A stretch of 8,238 nucleotides of DNA from NCBI GenBank assembly GCA_020356305.1, contig CP070636.1, forward strand, positions 1,005,147 through 1,013,384, read 5' to 3'. Positions within the stretch are counted from its first letter, which is position 1. Each line of letters opens with the position of its first letter. A program made the position numbers and the translations under genes. Shown one piece after another: positions 1 to 8,238 of the stretch. The stretch comes from Candidatus Bathyarchaeota archaeon. GTDB lineage: Archaea > Thermoproteota > Bathyarchaeia > Bathyarchaeales > Bathyarchaeaceae. The notes beneath the pieces are model-generated. The model was not told the origin of the DNA, did no database searches, and was given only the letters and a program-made list of their open reading frames with translations.

Positions 1-1
1 T

Positions 2-142
2 AGCAAATGTGATCGATGTGCATATCTCTGTTACATCTTCTATTCTCTTCACTCCGATGTGCTGAGCAATTTAGACATCATAAAAGATCAGTGGAAGAAC
101 GCAAAATCGCTATGGGCTGAAAAAAGAGTTTCAAATCACTGA
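2..142 (+). CDS. Possible C-terminal fragment of a cysteine-containing protein, cut by the window edge
   Basis: The frame beginning at base 2 is open from the window edge to a TGA at 140-142, giving about 46 residues with no start needed. It begins SKCDRCAYLC, a C-x2-C-x3-C arrangement, and continues as a mixed-charge, probably helical tail ending LWAEKRVSNH. Cysteine clusters of this kind near a C-terminus are seen in radical-SAM/SPASM-type proteins and other Fe-S or zinc proteins, but the fragment is too short to assign a family. The other frames here are broken by stops, which mildly favours this one. It would converge on the minus-strand cupin gene. It may also be chance, since 46 open codons is not rare. 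Confidence 0.35.
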   Translation, partial: SKCDRCAYLCYIFYSLHSDVLSNLDIIKDQWKNAKSLWAEKRVSNH

Positions 143-157
143 AGAGAAAAAGAAAGA

Positions 158-188
158 GAAGGACGCACGCGACCCGCGCGTATCCTTC
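158..188. repeat. Imperfect GC-rich inverted repeat between convergent genes
   Basis: GAAGGA (158-163) pairs with TCCTTC (183-188). The arms continue inward through ACGCG/CGCG-type bases, giving 11 Watson-Crick pairs plus one wobble out of 14 positions around a short loop. It lies between the end of the possible plus-strand gene (142) and the end of the cupin gene (306), where a transcription stop would be expected. No T-run follows it on either strand, so a terminator role is only a guess. The rest of 143-305 is purine-rich then AT-rich and includes a perfect 12-bp palindrome, AAAACATGTTTT, at 289-300, just past the cupin stop codon. Confidence 0.3.
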
Positions 189-305
189 TGGGGGGAGTGT
201 TCCTTCGGAGCGGGGATTAGGAAGTAAAACTGACCCTTGAAATGTGGTGTCCATTCCATCATTTGAGGAATATTAATTCAACAGTTGCAAAACATGTTTT
301 CTCCA

Positions 306-713
306 CTATGTCGCGTCAAGAGTTGTATTTGTACACGATTGTGTTTTTTCAAGAGAGCCATGTGCACGTAAATACTCATGAGCATAGGGAATTAAACAGA
401 GAAACTTCACAGTCTTTTTGTGGGTATTTTTGAACTGATGTTTCTCGTTTGGAGGAATGAAAATGACATTTCCGGGCCTAAACTTTGTTTCTTCTCCCTC
501 ACCAACTACAATGCCTTCCCCTTCTAGGATGAAAACCTCATGTTCCCAAGGATGGCTATGAAAAGGACTGTAGCCTCTAGGTTCCATCTCGAACAATCTC
601 ATTGCAAAGTTTTCTGCACCCGTCTCTTTTGTAATAAGCCATCTTACTCCTAATTTCACCGCACTTTTTTCAGCATCTTTTTTTTCTATGTCTTGAAAAT
701 GAAAAATCTTCAT
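306..713 (-). CDS. Small single-domain cupin protein
   Basis: A 135-residue cytoplasmic protein forming one cupin beta-barrel. Motif 1 is at residues 47-67: G47, then F-H52-S-H54-P-W-E-H-E59, then a GEG turn at 65-67. Motif 2 is at 81-96: G81, five residues, P87, H92, and N96. H52, H54, E59 and H92 match the usual cupin metal ligands, so a metal-binding role is likely; the reaction or ligand is unknown. The start chosen is ATG at 713, because GGAG lies 10 bases upstream. The frame stays open to a TTG at 755, but that start has no ribosome site and adds a tail outside the cupin fold. About 40 residues after motif 2 form a polar C-terminal tail. Single-domain cupins of this size range from isomerases and dioxygenases to sensors. 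The gene stands alone; the neighbour upstream is a pseudogene. Confidence 0.85.
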   Translation of the reverse strand: MKIFHFQDIEKKDAEKSAVKLGVRWLITKETGAENFAMRLFEMEPRGYSPFHSHPWEHEVFILEGEGIVVGEGEETKFRPGNVIFIPPNEKHQFKNTHKKTVKFLCLIPYAHEYLRAHGSLEKTQSCTNTTLDAT

Positions 714-753
714 GCTTTTGCAGCTCCAAGTAGAGCCATGATAATTAGCAATC

Positions 754-764
754 AATTAAATTTT
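754..764 (-). promoter_or_regulatory. Candidate archaeal TATA box for the cupin gene
   Basis: Reading the minus strand, AAAATTTAATT lies about 40-50 bases before the ATG at 713. A start of transcription some 25 bases downstream would leave a ~20-base leader holding the GGAG ribosome site. The match to the TTTAWATA consensus is only partial, so the call rests on spacing and AT-richness. Confidence 0.35.
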
Positions 765-783
765 ATGCCCAAATCCAAACCCA

Positions 784-828
784 GTGTGCACACGATCAAG
801 GTCCGATTACACACGTGTACTGTGCACA
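784..828. promoter_or_regulatory. Cluster of three short perfect palindromes upstream of the cupin promoter
   Basis: GTGTGCACAC (784-793), ACACGTGT (811-818) and TGTGCACA (821-828) are each perfectly self-complementary and all use the same GTG/CAC vocabulary. The two TGTGCAC cores start 36 bases apart. They sit just upstream of the proposed cupin TATA box and outside any open gene, a typical place for operator sites of a dimeric regulator. Binding by a regulator is inferred only. Confidence 0.35.
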
Positions 829-855
829 TCTAGTGGAAGTCTTGATTCAACCAGC

Positions 856-1250
856 TTATGTGGTTTGAAACCTAGGCATAACTTCCTTTGCAAAAAGTTC
901 TCTACTTTCCGTAGTAGTTTTCTCTAAGTAAAATCGTGTGATCCCCAATTTGAGATATTCTCTTATCTTGGAGCAACAGTCATTGGGTGTGCCCACAATA
1001 TTTTCGCGAACATACTCATCATAGCCCCCGGGAACTTGTATCCCAGGATGGGGGGTTCTCCTCTTGACGCTAGATATTCTTCAACTTTCGATCTTACATT
1101 GCTGCCTCTGGGCAAAAGAAACAGCTCGCCTGTCCACGCCCTCTTTATTTCATGAAAGTCTCTACCTGCATGCATGCAACATAAGCTACGTAGGATTTCG
1201 AAATATGTCGACGAGCGAAACAAGTTATTTTAGGCTACAAGATGCAACGT
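856..1250 (-). pseudogene. Remnant of a luciferase-like (F420-dependent-type) oxidoreductase: C-terminal part only, frameshifted
   Basis: About 125 residues of the C-terminal third of a luciferase-like monooxygenase (LLM) can be read if one frame change is allowed. The first part (1229 down to ~1027) contains AGRDFHEIKRAWTGE and VEEYLASRGEPPILGYKFPG. The second part (~1026 down to the TAA at 856-858) contains YDEYVRENIVGTPND, then KIREYLKLGITRFYL and ELFAKEVMPRF, in the order LLM proteins show: GRD-DEI helix, then VGTP, then lGvt-Fil, then eevmPrf. The two parts join at the CCCCCGGG run at 1025-1032: one additional G on the minus strand restores a continuous frame. Upstream there is an in-frame stop at 1230-1232, with only a few more LLM-like residues (TLHLVA, 1250-1233) before similarity fades. 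An intact member has about 320-350 residues including the N-terminal flavin/F420 barrel, which is absent. It therefore looks inactive even if the frameshift were a sequencing error. Confidence 0.72.
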
Positions 1251-1357
1251 TCAATTGGTTGGTTGAGGAGAGCATATGCTGAAAAGAGAAAGGAGTTTGT
1301 TATTTCTGCACCTAGAACCAGCTTCCTCCCAACCACCAACCTCCAACACTTCAAAGC

Positions 1358-1381
1358 GCGTGCGCGTATGAGCGCGCATGC
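1358..1381. terminator. GC-rich hairpin downstream of the E2 gene, possible transcription stop
   Basis: TGCGCG (1361-1366) and CGCGCA (1373-1378) form a perfect 6-bp stem around the loop TATGAG. The stem extends to nine pairs with one G-T wobble (1358-1381). It begins 32 bases past the E2 stop codon on the minus strand. No clear T-tract follows on that strand, so this is not a classical terminator; it may instead stabilise the 3' end. The alternating purine-pyrimidine run stands out from its AT-rich surroundings. Confidence 0.3.
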
Positions 1382-1413
1382 TGAACCGGCTGATTTCTCA
1401 TTCGCAAAAGTAG

Positions 1414-2511
1414 CTACCAAGGACTAGTCGCGCTTTCTAGAGTTTGTTTAATCTTCTGCAGAAATTGAGCGGCTGGAACTCCGTCGACCACTCGGTGGTC
1501 GAAGGATAGACTCATTTTCATCACTGGCTTGGCCACGATTTCTCTATCCACTACCGCTGGTTTTTTTGTTACTCTTCCGACGCCCAGTATGGCCGTTTCA
1601 GGCGGGTTGATGATAGGAGTGAAAATGTCTACCCCGAACATGCCGAGGTTGGTGATAGTGAATGTTCCGCCACTCATCTCCTCCTGTGTGAGCTTGCCTG
1701 CTCTCGCCTTTTCTACTAGTTCTTTGAGTGCCAAGGAGATTTCTTTGGGGTCCTTCTTGTCTGCGTTGCGTATTACTGGAACAATCAGTCCCTTTTCGGT
1801 GGCAACAGCGACGCCAACGTTGACATCCTCAAAAATTTTGATTTGATCTTCTTCCAGCGTTGAATTCATGATGGGATGCTCTTCTAGAGCGCTAGCAACG
1901 GCCTTAACCAGCAAGTCTGTGTAAGACAGCTGAGATTCTTTGCGGAGTTTCGTGGCATTGGACATGTCTACTTCCATGGTTATTGTGCTGTGGGGGGCTC
2001 TTCTGGCGCTTAGAGAAATACGTTCTGCTGCAGTTTTTCGTATTCCGGTGAGGACTATGACTTCCTTTACTTTCGGCGTTACCGTTGTCTCGTTTATGAA
2101 TCTAGTTACGTCCTCTTCTACGATTCTTCCTTCTGGGCCTGTACCTTCCACTTGAGCTAGGTCCAGCCCATATTCTCTTGCCAGTCTCTTCGCTGCTGGG
2201 GAGGCAATAATGCGCTTCTCAACTTTTTCTACAGGTACTTTGGCTACGGCTTTTGCATCTGGGAGTTCTTCTTCAGGTGCAGTTATGATAGCTAGTGTTT
2301 CAGCAACTGGAACGTCTGTCCCTTCTTCTGCAAGAATCTTGCGGACCACGCCAGACGCAGGAGCCTCCACTTCAAATGTCACCTTGTCAGAGAGCACCTC
2401 TACCACAGGTTCTCCTTTCTCCACGCTTTCTCCTTCCTTCTTGAACCATTGAACTACGGTTCCTTCCTTCATGGTTAGGCTGAGCCTAGGCATCATAACC
2501 TTGGTTACCAA
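1414..2511 (-). CDS. 2-oxoacid dehydrogenase complex E2 (lipoamide acyltransferase)
   Basis: Transfers the acyl group formed by E1 from its own lipoyl arm to coenzyme A and forms the core of the complex in the cytoplasm. Domains: a single lipoyl domain at residues 1-80 with lipoyl lysine K43 in the DKV motif; a peripheral-subunit-binding domain at ~102-139 (SPAAKRLAREYGLDL, then EGTGPEGRI), the docking site for E1/E3; a short linker; and a catalytic domain from ~152 ending in SFDHRVVDG, with catalytic H339 and D343. At 365 residues it is at the short end for the family but complete. Start: ATG at 2520 has GGAG touching it (spacing zero). TTG at 2511 has that GGAG nine bases upstream and gives the usual N-terminus (MVTKVMMPRLSLTM), so TTG is preferred and ATG is the alternative. 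Last gene of the E1-alpha/E1-beta/E2 operon. Pyruvate, branched-chain 2-oxoacid or acetoin specificity cannot be told apart here. Confidence 0.93.
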   Translation of the reverse strand: MVTKVMMPRLSLTMKEGTVVQWFKKEGESVEKGEPVVEVLSDKVTFEVEAPASGVVRKILAEEGTDVPVAETLAIITAPEEELPDAKAVAKVPVEKVEKRIIASPAAKRLAREYGLDLAQVEGTGPEGRIVEEDVTRFINETTVTPKVKEVIVLTGIRKTAAERISLSARRAPHSTITMEVDMSNATKLRKESQLSYTDLLVKAVASALEEHPIMNSTLEEDQIKIFEDVNVGVAVATEKGLIVPVIRNADKKDPKEISLALKELVEKARAGKLTQEEMSGGTFTITNLGMFGVDIFTPIINPPETAILGVGRVTKKPAVVDREIVAKPVMKMSLSFDHRVVDGVPAAQFLQKIKQTLESATSPW

Positions 2512-2532
2512 TTGTCCCATCTCCGTTCAAGG

Positions 2533-3510
2533 TTAATGGACAACTTCTTTAACAGCTTGCATTATTCTGTTCTCGTCGGGTATAACAAACTTCTCGAGGG
2601 GCGGGCTGAAGGGTATAGGCGTATCCGGCTCCGCCACCCGCTTAATTGGAGCGTCAAGATAGTCAATTGCCTCCTCAGCGATCACAGCTGAAATCTCTGC
2701 ACTGACGCCCCCTGTCTTACTGTCCTCTGTAACAATTACGATTCGCCCCGTTTTTTTCACGGAGTTCACGATTGCCTGCTTGTCTAGGGGAACGAGTGTC
2801 CTTGGGTCAACAACTTCTGCGCTTATTCCCTGTTTCCTGAGCTCTTCAGCTGCAGTTAGCGACTTGTGAACCATGTATAAGGTGGCAAAGATTGTCACAT
2901 CTTCTCCCTCTCTCTTCACATCTGCAAGACCAAACGGAACCGTGTACTCTTCTTCTGGAACTTCTCCGTTGATCGAGTAAAGAAGTTTGTGCTCAAAAAA
3001 CATAACGGGATTGTCGTCTCGTATCGCCGTTTTCAGCAGTCCCTTCGCATCATACGGTGTCGCAGGCATCACAATCTTTAAGCCTGGGACATGCATGAAC
3101 CAAGCCTCCAAGCTTTGAGAGTGATGCGCCGCAATGTTAACTCCAGCGCCGAAGGGCATTCGGATCACCAAAGGAACTCTCGTTTGACCCCCAAACATGT
3201 ACCTCAGCTTGGCCGCTTGATTCGCAATTTGATCCATAGCCAAAGCAGAGAGATCTCCAAACATGATCTCAGCGATTGGTCTCATGCCAGTTATGGCTGC
3301 TCCAGCGGCAACGCCTATGATGGCAGATTCTGATATAGGGGTGTCTCTCACTCGCGTGTCTCCAAACTCTTCTGCCAGCCCTTTCGTCACCTTGAAGGCT
3401 CCCTTCCAGTACCGCCCAACGTCTTCGCCCAGTACGAAAACCGTCTCGTCACGAAGCATCTCTTCCCTTAAGGCCTCGCGAAGAGCGTCGCGATAGGCTA
3501 TTTCCCTCAA
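2533..3510 (-). CDS. 2-oxoacid dehydrogenase complex E1 component, beta subunit
   Basis: Beta subunit of the heterotetrameric (alpha2-beta2) thiamine-diphosphate-dependent E1, which decarboxylates a 2-oxoacid and reductively acylates the E2 lipoyl group. The 325 residues match the usual family length. Visible landmarks: LGEDVGRYWKGAFKVTKGL near 27-45; DTPISESAIIG with E61, the glutamate that contacts the cofactor aminopyrimidine in this family; and AAHHSQSLEAWF at 127-138 with the conserved His pair H129/H130. The C-terminal transketolase-type domain includes VVDPRTLVPLD and VTEDSKTGGVSAEI and ends near PDTPIPFSPPLE. The start is TTG at 3510: an in-frame TAA lies two codons upstream, so no earlier start exists, and AGGAG lies 10 bases before the TTG. 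It begins 13 bp after the E1-alpha stop codon and ends 12-21 bp before E2, so the three are surely co-transcribed. Confidence 0.95.
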   Translation of the reverse strand: MREIAYRDALREALREEMLRDETVFVLGEDVGRYWKGAFKVTKGLAEEFGDTRVRDTPISESAIIGVAAGAAITGMRPIAEIMFGDLSALAMDQIANQAAKLRYMFGGQTRVPLVIRMPFGAGVNIAAHHSQSLEAWFMHVPGLKIVMPATPYDAKGLLKTAIRDDNPVMFFEHKLLYSINGEVPEEEYTVPFGLADVKREGEDVTIFATLYMVHKSLTAAEELRKQGISAEVVDPRTLVPLDKQAIVNSVKKTGRIVIVTEDSKTGGVSAEISAVIAEEAIDYLDAPIKRVAEPDTPIPFSPPLEKFVIPDENRIMQAVKEVVH

Positions 3511-3523
3511 CCCTTAACGTCTC

Positions 3524-4483
3524 CTAGATGTACACGTGCTCCAGAGCCTCCTCAGGCGACGGATATGGGCTCTCTATGGCAAACCTGACTGCATCTTCAA
3601 CCACAGCAACAACTTCTCCCTCGATCTTGTCCGCCTCCACTTCGTTCAAGGTCTTCAGCTCAAGTAGTTTCGCTCTGAATCGTCTGATGGGATCTCTTTT
3701 CAACCATTCCTCAATCTCTTCTTTTGGTCTGTAGGTGGCAGGGTCAAATCGAGAATGTCCCTTATGTCGATAGGTCTTACACTCCAGCAGGGTAGATCCC
3801 TCTCCGCTCCTCGCCCTATCAACCGCCTTACGGGCAGCTTCATAAACTGCAATTACGTCATTCCCATCCACAACAATGCCAGGAATGCCGTACGCTGCCG
3901 CCCGATCCGCCACATTTTGTATTGCCATGACTCTTGACTGACGAGTTCCCATGGCGTAAAGATTGTTTTCGCACACAAACAAAACTGGAAGCTTCCAAAT
4001 GGCCGCTATGTTAATCCGTTCGTGAAAGGTCCCCTGATTGGAAGCCCCCTCACCGAAGAAGCACGCCACAACCTGATCAGTTTTCCTCAACTTGATGGAT
4101 AAGCCTGCACCAGCGGCAATGGGGATTCCAGCCCCTACGACGGCGGTAGCGCCTAGCATTCCTATGCTGAAATCTGCAATGTGCATGGAACCTCCCTTGC
4201 CTTTACAATAGCCTGTTTTCTTCCCCAAAATCTCTGCCATTACCTTGCTCAGCTTGGCGCCCTTGGCGATGCAATGGCCATGTCCTCGGTGGGTGCTTGT
4301 TATGTAGTCGTCCTTTCTGAGGTTGGCGCAAACCCCAGCTGCCACCGCCTCCTGACCTGCGTAGAGATGGATTGTTCCCGGGACAAGGTTCTGGCCGTAC
4401 AAGTCATAAACCTTCTCTTCAAAGTGCCGGATCTCCAGCATCTTCCTGAATATTTTAATCATCTTTCCTTTTTCCAATGTCAA
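3524..4483 (-). CDS. 2-oxoacid dehydrogenase complex E1 component, alpha subunit
   Basis: Alpha subunit of the thiamine-diphosphate-dependent 2-oxoacid decarboxylase that feeds E2. In 319 residues it carries THRGHGH (64-70), GKGGSMHIAD (95-104), the ThDP/metal motif starting GEG (144-146) and ending at N173/N174 in FVCENNLYAMG, and the loop YRHKGHSRFDP near the region that is phosphorylated in mitochondrial homologues. The metal-binding motif reads GEG where GDG is most common; Glu can still offer a carboxylate and I do not take it as inactivation. The start is TTG at 4483 with GGGAGG eight bases upstream; the ATG at codon 8 lacks such a site. First gene of the operon, with its own TATA box about 50 bp upstream. 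Size and motifs also fit acetoin dehydrogenase E1-alpha, so the substrate stays open. Confidence 0.94.
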   Translation of the reverse strand: MTLEKGKMIKIFRKMLEIRHFEEKVYDLYGQNLVPGTIHLYAGQEAVAAGVCANLRKDDYITSTHRGHGHCIAKGAKLSKVMAEILGKKTGYCKGKGGSMHIADFSIGMLGATAVVGAGIPIAAGAGLSIKLRKTDQVVACFFGEGASNQGTFHERINIAAIWKLPVLFVCENNLYAMGTRQSRVMAIQNVADRAAAYGIPGIVVDGNDVIAVYEAARKAVDRARSGEGSTLLECKTYRHKGHSRFDPATYRPKEEIEEWLKRDPIRRFRAKLLELKTLNEVEADKIEGEVVAVVEDAVRFAIESPYPSPEEALEHVYI

Positions 4484-4519
4484 TTCGTTTTCCTCCCTAG
4501 AAAAACTACCCTAGAGAAA

Positions 4520-4690
4520 TCAAGAGACCTTATATAAAATCGTTGCGAGAAGGATGGAAACTATCGTGCCTTGTGTTTTCCGGTGCCCACAAAAACCTTG
4601 ACTCCCAATTCGTGAGACCTCCTGAGTTAGTTCAAGTGCTTTTTTGATTGCCTCAACCTGATTGTAAACAGCATCTTCAAACTTGAACAC
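4520..4690 (-). CDS. Possible small protein of unknown function (56 residues)
   Basis: A minus-strand frame runs from a GTG at 4690 to TGA at 4520-4522, between the 2-hydroxyacid dehydrogenase and E1-alpha. The N-terminal half (FKFEDAVYNQVEAIKKALEL) looks like a charged amphipathic helix; the C-terminal part (TIVSILLATILYKVS) is hydrophobic. There is no clear ribosome site, and the frame runs back to a stop at 4715-4717 through the T-tract proposed as a terminator. It also covers the E1-alpha TATA box. It could be a degraded gene end, a real small protein, or chance. I do not recognise a family. Confidence 0.2.
   Translation of the reverse strand: MFKFEDAVYNQVEAIKKALELTQEVSRIGSQGFCGHRKTQGTIVSILLATILYKVS
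4531..4538 (-). promoter_or_regulatory. Archaeal TATA box of the 2-oxoacid dehydrogenase operon
   Basis: On the minus strand the bases read TTTATATA, a near-perfect archaeal TATA element, within ACGATTTTATATAAGG. It lies about 50 bases before the E1-alpha TTG. Transcription starting ~25 bases downstream would give a ~25-base leader containing the GGGAGG ribosome site, which fits well. The strong box and short leader mark the start of the E1-alpha/E1-beta/E2 transcript. Confidence 0.6.
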
Positions 4691-4692
4691 AC

Positions 4693-4699
4693 AAAAAAA
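4693..4699 (-). terminator. T-tract terminator after the 2-hydroxyacid dehydrogenase gene
   Basis: Seven consecutive T residues on the minus strand begin ~30 bases past the TAA of the dehydrogenase, preceded by CATCC. Archaeal RNA polymerase terminates at such U-tracts without needing a hairpin. It separates this gene from the downstream operon, which has its own promoter. Confidence 0.45.
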
Positions 4700-4727
4700 G
4701 GATGGGTGCTTTTCTCAGAGAATGAAT

Positions 4728-5651
4728 TTACTTTAATGATTTGATGATCTTTTCTGCAATCAAGATGGCTGCAGCTCTTTGGGCTTCTTGAGTTTGAGCT
4801 CCTATATGCGGTGTGCAGACAACGTTGGGCAACTCTATTACTGATGAATCTGTTGGGGGTTCCATTTCGTAGACGTCTAGCGCAGCTCCTCCCAGTCTTC
4901 CAGATCGCAGGGCATTCAGCAGAGCTTTTCCGTCAATTATGCCGCCCCTCGAGGTATTGACGAGAAAGGCGCCGTCTTTCATGAGTTGTAACTCTTTAGT
5001 GCCAATCATGCGGTGAGTTTGAGGGGTCAACGGAACATGTAGGGTAACCACATCGCTCCGTTGGAGCAGCTCCGATAACGAAACAAATTCTCCTTGTAGT
5101 TCTCTCAGCAATTCTGGCTTAGGAGGGGTTCGCTTTGTAATCAAGATTTTGACTCCAAAGGCTTTGGCGATTCTCGCTACCCTCTCACCGACGTTTCCCA
5201 AGCCGATCAAACCGAGAGTCTTGCCACTCAACTCCCAGCCTCTCAGGTCTCTTTTTATCCATTCGCCATCTTTCATTGTTCGATCTGCGAGAGGGATTTT
5301 GCGCGCCAGTGAAACCATCAACCCTATTGTTAGCTCAGCCACAGCTTCGGCTGGAGCTTCAGGTGTGTTCAAAACCTTGACGCCTCGTTTTTTCGCGATC
5401 TCTATGTCGATGTTGTCTAAGCCGACTCCAGCTCGTCCCACAATCTTTAGTCTTTTTCCAGCTTCAATAATTTCCCTCGTAACCTTTGTTCGGCTTCGCA
5501 CAATCAGTGCGTCATAACCTGATACAACGTTTCTATGATTTTCGTGTGATATGGTGGGCTTTACATCAACCTCATAACCAGTTTGCTCCAGCTTTTCTAT
5601 TCCTTCCTTATGAAGTGAGTCACAGACAAGAATTCTCGTCTTCGGCTTCAT
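4728..5651 (-). CDS. D-isomer-specific 2-hydroxyacid dehydrogenase (phosphoglycerate dehydrogenase-like, no ACT domain)
   Basis: NAD(P)-dependent cytoplasmic enzyme interconverting a 2-hydroxyacid and its 2-oxoacid. In 307 residues the split catalytic domain (1-~95 and ~285-307) encloses the Rossmann domain. Seen: VGRAGVGLDNID (71-82), TLGLIGLGNVG with the dinucleotide-binding glycines at 150-155, VNTSRGGIIDG with R235, ALDVYEMEP with E264, and TPHIGAQT with H282, the usual catalytic Arg/Glu/His set. It ends soon after the catalytic core, so the regulatory ACT/ASB domains of long SerA proteins are absent. After beta-2 the sequence is LITKRTPP, with no acidic residue at the position that normally holds the NAD ribose, which hints at NADP use. 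ATG at 5651 has AAGGAG eight bases upstream. Phosphoglycerate, glyoxylate or hydroxypyruvate are all possible substrates; serA is likely but unproven. Confidence 0.92.
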   Translation of the reverse strand: MKPKTRILVCDSLHKEGIEKLEQTGYEVDVKPTISHENHRNVVSGYDALIVRSRTKVTREIIEAGKRLKIVGRAGVGLDNIDIEIAKKRGVKVLNTPEAPAEAVAELTIGLMVSLARKIPLADRTMKDGEWIKRDLRGWELSGKTLGLIGLGNVGERVARIAKAFGVKILITKRTPPKPELLRELQGEFVSLSELLQRSDVVTLHVPLTPQTHRMIGTKELQLMKDGAFLVNTSRGGIIDGKALLNALRSGRLGGAALDVYEMEPPTDSSVIELPNVVCTPHIGAQTQEAQRAAAILIAEKIIKSLK

Positions 5652-5696
5652 TCACCCGGCTCCTTTTCAGCTTCTGAGTAAGTTTGTCGGCTTGGA

Positions 5697-5709
5697 TTTA
5701 TTTTTTTCC
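5697..5709 (-). promoter_or_regulatory. Candidate promoter (BRE/TATA-like) of the 2-hydroxyacid dehydrogenase
   Basis: The minus strand reads CCGGAAAAAAATAAATCC about 45-60 bases before the ATG at 5651. A purine-rich, BRE-like segment followed by an A/T-only box at this distance would give a leader of about 20 bases holding AAGGAG. The box lacks the TATATA core, so confidence is modest. Confidence 0.35.
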
Positions 5710-5734
5710 GGCGGGAGCGTCATTGAATGAGTTC

Positions 5735-5746
5735 GATTGATCAATC
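5735..5746. promoter_or_regulatory. Perfect 12-bp palindrome, possible operator
   Basis: GATTGATCAATC is fully self-complementary and lies in the 162-bp gap between the FAH-family gene and the 2-hydroxyacid dehydrogenase, about 25 bases upstream of the dehydrogenase's proposed TATA-like box. Perfect palindromes there can bind Lrp/AsnC- or TetR/MarR-type dimers. A five-T run on the minus strand at 5751-5755 lies beside it and could end the upstream transcript. Confidence 0.3.
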
Positions 5747-5813
5747 CTGCAAAAACTCAACATCCTATTAACACAGGATTTTGCTCGATTTCAGTCTGTG
5801 TGATCGTTCAGTT

Positions 5814-6704
5814 TCAGTTTTCTTTCGCAACCACGTTTCTAAGGGTTCCAATCTGCTCGATTTCGACCTCAACAGTGTCACCTGGCTCCAGATATTTGGG
5901 TTGTGGTTTCATGAAGGCAGCCACGCCGGCAGGGGTTCCAGTGGCTATGACATCGCCCGGTTCCAGTGTCATAACTCTGCTAAGGCGATGAATCACTTCG
6001 TAGACGCTGAACACCATGTTCCTTGTTGAAGAGTTTTGTCTCAGCTCTCCGTTTACTCTTGTTCGTATCCATAAGTTGTTTGGGTTTGAGATCTGGTTGG
6101 CGAGGGTGATGCACGGTCCCATTGGGGCAAATGTGTCGAAGCTTTTTCCTCTTGTCCATTGTTTATCTCTGAACTGGATGTCCCGGGCGGAAACATCGTT
6201 GAAAGCCATGTATCCGAAAATGTAGTTTTCCACCTCTGCAATTGGCATGTTCTTTCCTCTTTGCCCTACAATTACGGCTAACTCTGCTTCATAGTCCAAC
6301 TCTTTCACGATGCTCGGATAGATTATGGATTCGTTGGGACCAATAACAGCTGTTCTAGGTTTCATGAAAATTATGAGGTCTTCAGGCATCTTTGCCCCCT
6401 GCTCTTCAGCATGATCTCTGTAGTTTAAGCCTAAGCAGATGATCTTAGGAGGAGAAGCAATTGGAGCCAGAAGGGTCGCATCTTCCATTTTCTGTGTTGC
6501 CTTTCTTGTCAGGTCTTCCGGCGAGGTGCGCATCAATTCCTCTGCGGCAGCGACACCTTCAACTCCGAGCGATATTAGCCCATTCAGATTTAGTGGAAGA
6601 GGGTGCCTCACGATCTCTGAGAGCTTTGGTAAGCATACAACACTCTCATTAGTCAAGAAACCGTAGAATTCAACGCCCGAGTGCAGATATCGAATCAGTT
6701 TCAA
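5814..6704 (-). CDS. Fumarylacetoacetate hydrolase (FAH) family protein
   Basis: A 296-residue metal-dependent hydrolase/decarboxylase of the FAH fold, acting on 2-oxo or 1,3-dicarbonyl acids (acylpyruvates, fumarylpyruvate, oxaloacetate and similar). Seen: LGLNYRDHAEE with H98 and E101 (active-site lid pair); LDYEAELAVIVG with metal ligands E139 and E141; FNDVSARD with D170 as the third ligand; RGKSFDTFAPMGP with K187; and VIATGTPAGV (TGTP at 255-258). The ~80-residue N-terminal domain typical of prokaryotic FAH proteins is present. The frame extends to an ATG at 6746, but that ATG lies inside a TATA-like box and has no ribosome site. TTG at 6704 gives the family-like start MKLIRYLHSGVEFYG with an AGGT ~10 bases upstream, so it is preferred. 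The neighbouring 2-hydroxyacid dehydrogenase suggests a shared organic-acid pathway. Exact substrate unknown. Confidence 0.92.
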   Translation of the reverse strand: MKLIRYLHSGVEFYGFLTNESVVCLPKLSEIVRHPLPLNLNGLISLGVEGVAAAEELMRTSPEDLTRKATQKMEDATLLAPIASPPKIICLGLNYRDHAEEQGAKMPEDLIIFMKPRTAVIGPNESIIYPSIVKELDYEAELAVIVGQRGKNMPIAEVENYIFGYMAFNDVSARDIQFRDKQWTRGKSFDTFAPMGPCITLANQISNPNNLWIRTRVNGELRQNSSTRNMVFSVYEVIHRLSRVMTLEPGDVIATGTPAGVAAFMKPQPKYLEPGDTVEVEIEQIGTLRNVVAKEN

Positions 6705-6744
6705 CTCTCTTGACCTGTGGCAATAAATGAGTTTTGAAAGTTTC

Positions 6745-6752
6745 ATATATAA
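6745..6752 (-). promoter_or_regulatory. TATA box for the FAH-family gene, overlapping an upstream in-frame ATG
   Basis: The minus strand reads TTATATAT within CAAATTATATATGAAA. It sits ~40 bases before the TTG at 6704, which is right for a short-leader archaeal transcript, and it includes part of the ATG at 6746. If this is the promoter, that ATG would lie upstream of the transcript, supporting the TTG start. Confidence 0.45.
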
Positions 6753-7122
6753 TTTGAGGTTGTGTCCTTTTTGGCGACTAATGCAAAACCTTTACGTTTG
6801 AAGCTGAAGATTTCTGCAACCAGAGAGGTCCATCAGATTCCTCGACTGCACCTATCTCTCAGGACGATACGCACGAAAACAAGAGGTAGCGTTCAGCATG
6901 TTTCATCCCGCCCTCGCACACAGGGGGTCCCGCTGTTTCTTGACACGCTATAACAATCGAAAATTGAATAAATACTTTAATGTTAAACACCTACATAACC
7001 AACCACATGACCAGAACCGATTTTAGTGAAAAAATAGCGGAAACATCTTTCAACCCCGCGCGCGCGAGTTTGTTAACAATCATCTGCTTTGCCCCGTGAT
7101 TGGCCTGACCAATGAGAGTAAC
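6753..7122. other. Long intergenic stretch between divergent genes, no supported gene
   Basis: The space separates the minus-strand FAH gene from the plus-strand reading frame at 7200. It is AT-rich around 6950-7050, with a possible plus-strand promoter-like stretch near 6965-6980 (GAATAAATACTTTAAT). Structures seen: a ten-base alternating CG run at 7057-7066, a perfect palindrome TTGTTAACAA at 7070-7079, and an inverted repeat ATTGG-CCTGA-CCAAT at 7099-7113. The open frame at 6762-6953 is rich in Thr, Arg and Ser with no recognisable domain, and I do not count it as a gene. No tRNA, riboswitch or insertion sequence was recognised. Confidence 0.5.
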
Positions 7123-7203
7123 ATGCTTGTAAAGAAAACGGTGTTGTCAACAGAAGATTTCAAAACTGAGCCGGTTATGCACAAGGGTGGTCTTCCGAAA
7201 TGA
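7123..7203 (+). CDS. Possible 26-residue leader peptide overlapping the next start codon
   Basis: ATG at 7123 opens a short frame (MLVKKTVLSTEDFKTEPVM and a seven-residue tail) whose TGA at 7201-7203 overlaps the ATG at 7200 in an ATGA arrangement, typical of translationally coupled genes. There is only a weak GAGAG before it. The overlap is the sole positive sign; a chance open frame is just as likely. Confidence 0.2.
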   Translation: MLVKKTVLSTEDFKTEPVMHKGGLPK

Positions 7204-8147
7204 GTTGCGAATGGAAACGAATGAAAAAGGCCCGGTTGCTTTCTCTTATTGCAATTTTTGCTGCTTTAAACGTAGTTTGCGACTCTATTGGTGGTCTCTC
7301 TATTTTTGAGTATGGTGTTTGGTGGTCATTGATTTTCCTTGTGGTGCCGTATGGCGAGGCGTCTGGCTACCCGCGCGGCGTGGCGGTGGAGGAGCTGATC
7401 GCCTGGATGGATGCATCGGGCGTCATGCAGGCGGTCGTCCTTCCGCTGGAAAGCCCCGAGTGTGACACGGAGTACGCGCCGAGCGCGCAGGCGTGGGAGC
7501 TGTGCAGCCGGTTCCCGGACCGGCTGATCCCGTTCGTCGGCGCCGATCCCCGCCAGCAGCAGGTGCTGGACAAGGTGCGCCACTACCACGGTCGCGGCGC
7601 GAAGGGATACGGCGAGCACAAGTGCGGACTCGCCATGGATGACGAGCGGTCCATGGCGGTGTATCGCCTGTGCGGCGAGCTGCGTCTCCCGGTCCTCTTC
7701 CACATGGACCCCGGGCTCAACAGCGATGAGGCCGGCCTGCCCGGTCTCGAGCGGGCGCTACGGGAGGCGCCCGAGACGAACTTCATCGCCCATGGACCTG
7801 GGTGGTGGACCGCGATCTCGGGCGATGATGACCGGGCCGGAGGGTATCCCTCCGGTGCCATCAGCCCCGGCGGGGCCGCGGATCGTCTGCTCTCGGAGTG
7901 CCCGAACCTCTACGCGGAGATCTCGGCCGGTTCGGGTAACAACGCGCTCACGCGAGATCCCGGGTTCACTGAGGGCTTCCTCGCGCGTCACTGGCGCAAG
8001 CTGCTGTTCGGAAGCGACTACTTTCTGGTCGGGCAGAAGGTGCCACAGGTGGAGTGGCTCCGAACGTATCCAATGCCGGAAGAGTGGCGAGAGGCGATCG
8101 GGTGGCGGAACGCGAAGCGGCTGCTGGGCACCGCCGAGGGTAGCTAG
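7200..8147 (+). CDS. Chimeric reading frame: membrane-protein N-terminus joined to a truncated amidohydrolase
   Basis: Residues 1-49 resemble the start of a small archaeal membrane protein: KKARLLSLIAIFAALNVVCD (9-28) is a hydrophobic helix, followed by YGVWWSLIFL, like ECF-transporter S components, whose remaining helices are missing. From about residue 50 the protein is an amidohydrolase-2 (TIM-barrel, metal-dependent) enzyme: VEELIAWMDASGVMQAVVLP (63-82), LPVLFHMDPG with H168, NFIAHGPGWW with H198, LLFGSDYF with D273, and GWRNAKRLLG near the end. The first beta-strand with its metal-binding HxH is absent, so this product could not form a normal active site. Base composition shifts at the same point: 23 of 60 bases are G/C at 7261-7320 and 40 of 60 at 7381-7440. 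I read it as two unrelated partial genes joined in frame by accident. ATG at 7221 is an alternative start for the first part. Confidence 0.8.
   Translation: MSCEWKRMKKARLLSLIAIFAALNVVCDSIGGLSIFEYGVWWSLIFLVVPYGEASGYPRGVAVEELIAWMDASGVMQAVVLPLESPECDTEYAPSAQAWELCSRFPDRLIPFVGADPRQQQVLDKVRHYHGRGAKGYGEHKCGLAMDDERSMAVYRLCGELRLPVLFHMDPGLNSDEAGLPGLERALREAPETNFIAHGPGWWTAISGDDDRAGGYPSGAISPGGAADRLLSECPNLYAEISAGSGNNALTRDPGFTEGFLARHWRKLLFGSDYFLVGQKVPQVEWLRTYPMPEEWREAIGWRNAKRLLGTAEGS
7335..7352. other. Probable join between two unrelated DNA sources
   Basis: Sequence left of this point is AT-leaning and archaeal in style; right of it is GC-rich with strong G/C at third codon positions. Protein similarity switches families between residues ~46 and ~51 of the overlapping frame, breaking both partners in mid-gene. 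No transposon end, tRNA or repeat is visible at the join, which argues against ordinary mobile-element insertion and favours an assembly or amplification chimera. Confidence 0.65.
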
Positions 8148-8169
8148 CGCGCTCACCTGGAGGCCGAGC

Positions 8170-8238
8170 ATGGCGACCATCTTCGAACCTGGCCGCGAGC
8201 TGGACGTGATCGAGCAGGCGGAGGTTGTGGTTGCGGGA
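8170..8238 (+). CDS. N-terminal fragment of a probable FAD-dependent oxidoreductase
   Basis: ATG at 8170, with GGAGG six bases upstream, opens a frame that runs off the window after 23 residues (MATIFEPGRELDVIEQAEVV then VAG). The end, a D-V-x(n)-A-x-V-V-V-A-G stretch, is the first beta-strand and the beginning of a dinucleotide-binding GxGxxG loop, as found in FAD-dependent oxidoreductases (FAD_oxidored-type and related). It follows the amidohydrolase stop by 22 bp on the same strand and shares its GC-rich style, so the two probably form an operon in the source genome. The loop glycines lie beyond the window, so the call is tentative. Confidence 0.55.
   Translation, partial: MATIFEPGRELDVIEQAEVVVAG

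Follow-up and report, generated by a model that had tools for sequence, protein, structure and literature searches.

An open reading frame uniting the start of a Bathyarchaeial membrane protein with a truncated amidohydrolase is very probably a technical chimera

Introduction

Junctions of MDA chimeras have been described by the number of bases that the joined segments share. One study is reported to have found 2–21 complementary bases at >70% of the junctions, and where the segments lay >10 kb apart, complementary bases at only 34.8% and 27.6% of the junctions (PMC1855051). A literature search for chimeric contigs together with microhomology returned no paper that covered all of these aspects.

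We analysed a stretch of 8,238 nucleotides of a Candidatus Bathyarchaeota archaeon (contig CP070636.1), hereafter the window. The original prediction, made from the letters of the DNA, had proposed that near its right end the beginning of an archaeal membrane protein is joined in frame to a beheaded amidohydrolase, and that this join stems either from a chimera formed during assembly or amplification or from recombination of very recent date. We report here the parentage of the two halves, the position of the joint and the weighing of the explanations.

Results

The open reading frame at 7200–8147 (+ strand) is unbroken across the joint and encodes 315 aa in 315 codons. It consists of residues 1–50 of a ~244-aa Bathyarchaeial membrane protein, followed in frame by residues 13–277 of an Amidohydro_2 enzyme. 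The two halves were assigned to two distinct families, and the alignments to the closest parent-like proteins, P0121 and P0001, confirmed the proposed in-frame join. They also confirmed that both halves are incomplete at one point: the membrane half stops at residue 50, and the enzyme half lacks its first 12 residues.

The N-terminal half (7200–7349, + strand) was searched with residues 1–50 only, using candidate lengths of 0.55 to 1.75 times 315 aa and E<=1. Out of 21 candidates, 11 relatives (P0121–P0131) were obtained, and every one of them is a membrane protein of 235–250 aa. The window aligns with P0121 without gaps (48/50 identical residues) up to ...FLVVP, after which P0121 reads LTG. 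The sequence P-[L/I]-T-G follows in 11/11 of the membrane relatives at the place where the window switches to P-Y-G-E. In the class to which Candidatus Bathyarchaeota bin28 (G001) belongs, 134 of 256 genomes have a match to P0121 (E<=0.001; top identity 63%), and judged by these matches the membrane protein belongs to a common archaeal family. The relation to an ECF transporter S component, the earlier label, is at best weak: full-length P0121 scored below the curated cut-offs, both with Pfam ECF_trnsprt (15.4 bits; cut-off 30.7) and with the NCBIfam FolT family (29.8 bits; cut-off 60), and a Pfam scan of the 47-residue N-terminal piece of the window gave no match. Stop codons in three of the membrane-gene matches (L004, L011 and L015) were considered and dropped; they lay near the alignment ends in two of these loci, and the third had none.

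The C-terminal half (7350–8147, + strand) is an Amidohydro_2 enzyme. The search with the full reading frame found 359 proteins, 120 of which were listed, with P0001 (277 aa) as the best match. P0001 reads MNLLDIHTHLVPYGEASG, and the window joins it at VPYGEASG. From P50-Y51 onward the window tracks P0001 (...HLVPYGEASGYPRG), and its residues 51–315 align without gaps (247/265 identical). The Pfam profile PF04909 scored 62.8 bits in the window, above its curated cut-off of 26.4, and the match covers only profile positions 67–288 of 289, whereas in P0001 it starts at position 2. The missing part includes the start codon and the N-terminal D-x-H-x-H, which we take to be the metal-binding strand of the enzyme. 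This motif, searched as D/N-x-H-x-H within the first 90 residues, is present in 119 of the 120 listed relatives, the sole exception being P0100, a protein of 247 aa that starts further along; it is absent from the window's reading frame, in agreement with the predicted loss of the HxH strand. The LFH, IAHGP and FGSDY stretches, presumably metal ligands, are retained.

The joint could be placed from the parent proteins by codon reasoning. Codon 48 (GTG) may be an archaeal V; a bacterial origin would require a V at this place in the bacterial parent, as in P0002, or, if that parent had L as in P0001, would apply from the second base of the codon. Codon 51 (TAT) is the bacterial Y, and only its first base can be shared, with a TTR leucine codon of the archaeal parent. 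These constraints place the joint within 7340–7350, which narrows the original estimate of 7335–7352, and therefore limit the shared run to about 11 bases or fewer. The sequence common to both parents would thus lie around GTGCCG, and it could be near zero in length. The scans used recovered no parental DNA for P0001 or P0121, and when 13 archaeal loci were scanned for the codons at the joint, L006 alone gave a hit; this estimate of microhomology therefore rests on protein sequences.

Base composition, computed without the parent proteins, gave the same position. The single G+C change point of the whole window lies at 7342 (gain 75.6; support interval 7330–7371, within 3 log-likelihood units), a step that bears out the expected difference in composition between left and right. 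G+C is 46.6% in 1–7341 vs 68.1% in 7350–8238 (605/889), with GC3 values of 0.40 for the N-terminal and 0.84 for the amidohydrolase half. The local counts given originally, 23/60 at 7261–7320 and 40/60 at 7381–7440, were reproduced on recounting.

Left of the joint, a gene block on the − strand (306–6746) encodes a cupin, 2-oxoacid dehydrogenase E2, E1-beta and E1-alpha, a D-2-hydroxyacid dehydrogenase and an FAA hydrolase, assigned by Pfam and NCBIfam. In G001, the E2, E1-beta, E1-alpha and hydroxyacid dehydrogenase genes have the same order and orientation as in the window (protein identities of 78, 90, 86 and 77%, respectively), with about 2 kb extra between E1-alpha and the hydroxyacid dehydrogenase; relatives of the FAA hydrolase (80%) and the cupin (70%) are located elsewhere in that genome. 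Because of this synteny, these identities and the occurrence of E2 relatives in 94/256 genomes of the class, the left 7.3 kb is, on comparative grounds, ordinary Bathyarchaeial DNA.

The E1-alpha, E1-beta and E2 genes (1414–4483, − strand) are those of a Bathyarchaeial 2-oxoacid dehydrogenase complex of the pyruvate dehydrogenase type. Their order is kept in five relatives (L023, L029, L030, L031 and L032), although in L023 and L030 the contig stops within E1-alpha. No E3 was present among the window proteins scanned with Pfam. Short GC-rich runs of alternating CG occur in the lower-GC intergenic DNA at 163–200 (26/38 G+C), 1355–1385 (20/31) and 7055–7072 (14/18); by eye some of them resemble inverted repeats and are possibly terminators.

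Right of the joint, the 889 bases are of high GC all the way to the window end, and no second junction occurs before it. The start of a possible next gene on this high-GC fragment (8170–8238, + strand; 23 aa) is cut by the window end and has no Pfam match. We built a midpoint-rooted tree of 52 rows from the window enzyme, the five loci of Bathyarchaeia that scored best and 46 proteins out of the 120 listed. The window enzyme and P0001 grouped together (100/100) in a clade of 37 rows (99/98), and the next group outside this clade includes three Armatimonadota-named members. The five Bathyarchaeial loci formed a group of their own, apart from the window enzyme; the placement of L021, which has a long branch, is uncertain, and the composition of four archaeal rows is unusual. 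Named relatives among the matches listed include three Armatimonadota (46–52% identity) and one Planctomycetota (49%). The right part thus probably derives from an unrelated, high-GC, bacterial genome, the word bacterial resting on the names of the relatives and on GC. No plasmid relative of 7200–8238 was found in PLSDB, and no relative of P0001 in the viral_contigs scan.

P0001 has matches (E<=0.001) in 46 of the 256 Bathyarchaeial genomes, and the number of Amidohydro_2 matches per genome is 28 in G043, 14 in G062 and none in G061. Bathyarchaeia therefore own Amidohydro_2 proteins, and the gain of such an enzyme would not be absurd. Long residence of this gene in Bathyarchaeia was nevertheless rejected, since the best-scoring homologue in the 256 genomes is only 44% identical, compared with 247/265 residues shared with P0001, and since the five Bathyarchaeial loci of the tree sit apart from the window enzyme.

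The same join was then sought in the relatives. By blastp (E<=0.01), residues 1–50 matched 11/11 of the membrane proteins and 0/120 of the listed amidohydrolases, while the remainder of the reading frame matched 120/120 of the listed amidohydrolases and 0/11 of the membrane proteins. Homologues of the same fused architecture had been named beforehand as the observation that would speak for a real gene; none of the 131 relatives (11 membrane proteins and the 120 listed of 359 amidohydrolases) matched both halves. The amidohydrolase half was also not found in L004 and L006–L017 (about 3.7 kb each around the membrane-gene matches), nor in the 19.6-kb contig L033, which carries the closest membrane-gene match.

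Discussion

Two unrelated families are interrupted at a single point, the composition steps at that point, and the join is absent from the 11 membrane proteins and 120 listed amidohydrolases. Of the two origins left open by the original prediction, these data favour the first, and we consider the join between the archaeal and the enzyme part to be, with high confidence, a technical chimera. In this view, 889 bases of an unrelated, high-GC and probably bacterial genome, extending to the window end, would have become attached to Bathyarchaeial DNA within a stretch common to both around GTGCCG, no longer than about 11 bases. The most likely source would be a chimeric DNA molecule or read, produced by library ligation or by template switching of a polymerase, and as a last step the chimera may have been assembled where archaeal coverage ended. 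The reading frame would have been preserved by chance, which is expected in 1 of 3 cases for two coding pieces on the same strand, and neither a fusion gene nor a fusion protein would exist.

Common de Bruijn assemblers require about 20 or more shared bases. Because the shared run at the joint falls short of such an overlap, a chimeric molecule or read appears more likely than an assembly error driven by k-mers or repeats. The size of this run would lie in the usual range for amplification chimeras (PMC1855051), and it is in itself no sign that the sample was amplified.

A genuine, very recent illegitimate recombination that brought high-GC bacterial DNA into the Bathyarchaeial chromosome, truncating both genes and leaving a non-functional fusion reading frame, is unlikely. 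Joining mediated by microhomology in cells would also give a short shared run, and Amidohydro_2 genes do occur in Bathyarchaeia. However, the composition shows no amelioration (GC3 of 0.84 vs 0.35–0.56 across the six left-hand genes), a membrane gene and an amidohydrolase gene would have to be broken simultaneously, and neither a second junction up to the window end nor a joined case in the relatives examined was seen. A mobile-element junction was likewise rejected: the window has no tRNA and no Rfam match at gathering score, and the Pfam scan of nine sequences (seven genes) found no mobile-element family, transposase or integrase; these results also speak against the recombination. The join, if real, would be a fresh inter-domain integration; the specific course of a very recent bacterium-to-archaeon transfer, not yet ameliorated and joined by microhomology within the membrane-protein gene, is quite unlikely. 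A real protein in which a membrane anchor carries an amidohydrolase domain is highly implausible and was rejected, for although the frame is open over 315 aa, the enzyme half has lost the metal strand and none of the 131 relatives is fused alike.

On the reading as a technical chimera, the open reading frame at 7200–8147 almost certainly combines unrelated DNA from different microbes, and it should not be annotated as a single protein or as a gene transfer. It should be split at 7340–7350, and unless reads indicate the opposite, the bases on to 8238 should be regarded as not belonging to the archaeal bin. If uncorrected, the record would carry a false fusion protein, wrongly suggest a transfer between domains and leave 889 contaminating bases in a Bathyarchaeial bin.

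Compared with known systems, the window resembles the Bathyarchaeial ~244-aa membrane family (P0121–P0131) over its 50 initial residues and lacks residues 51–244. It resembles the P0001 clade of Amidohydro_2 (PF04909) over the 265 residues that follow, with the LFH, IAHGP and FGSDY stretches kept, and it differs in that the DxHxH strand and start codon are gone and the N terminus is foreign. With chimeric DNA or contigs that arise during assembly, library preparation or amplification, such as the MDA chimeras (PMC1855051), it shares the meeting of two unrelated sequences at, at most, a few common bases; the difference is that the MDA study concerns rearrangements inside one genome.
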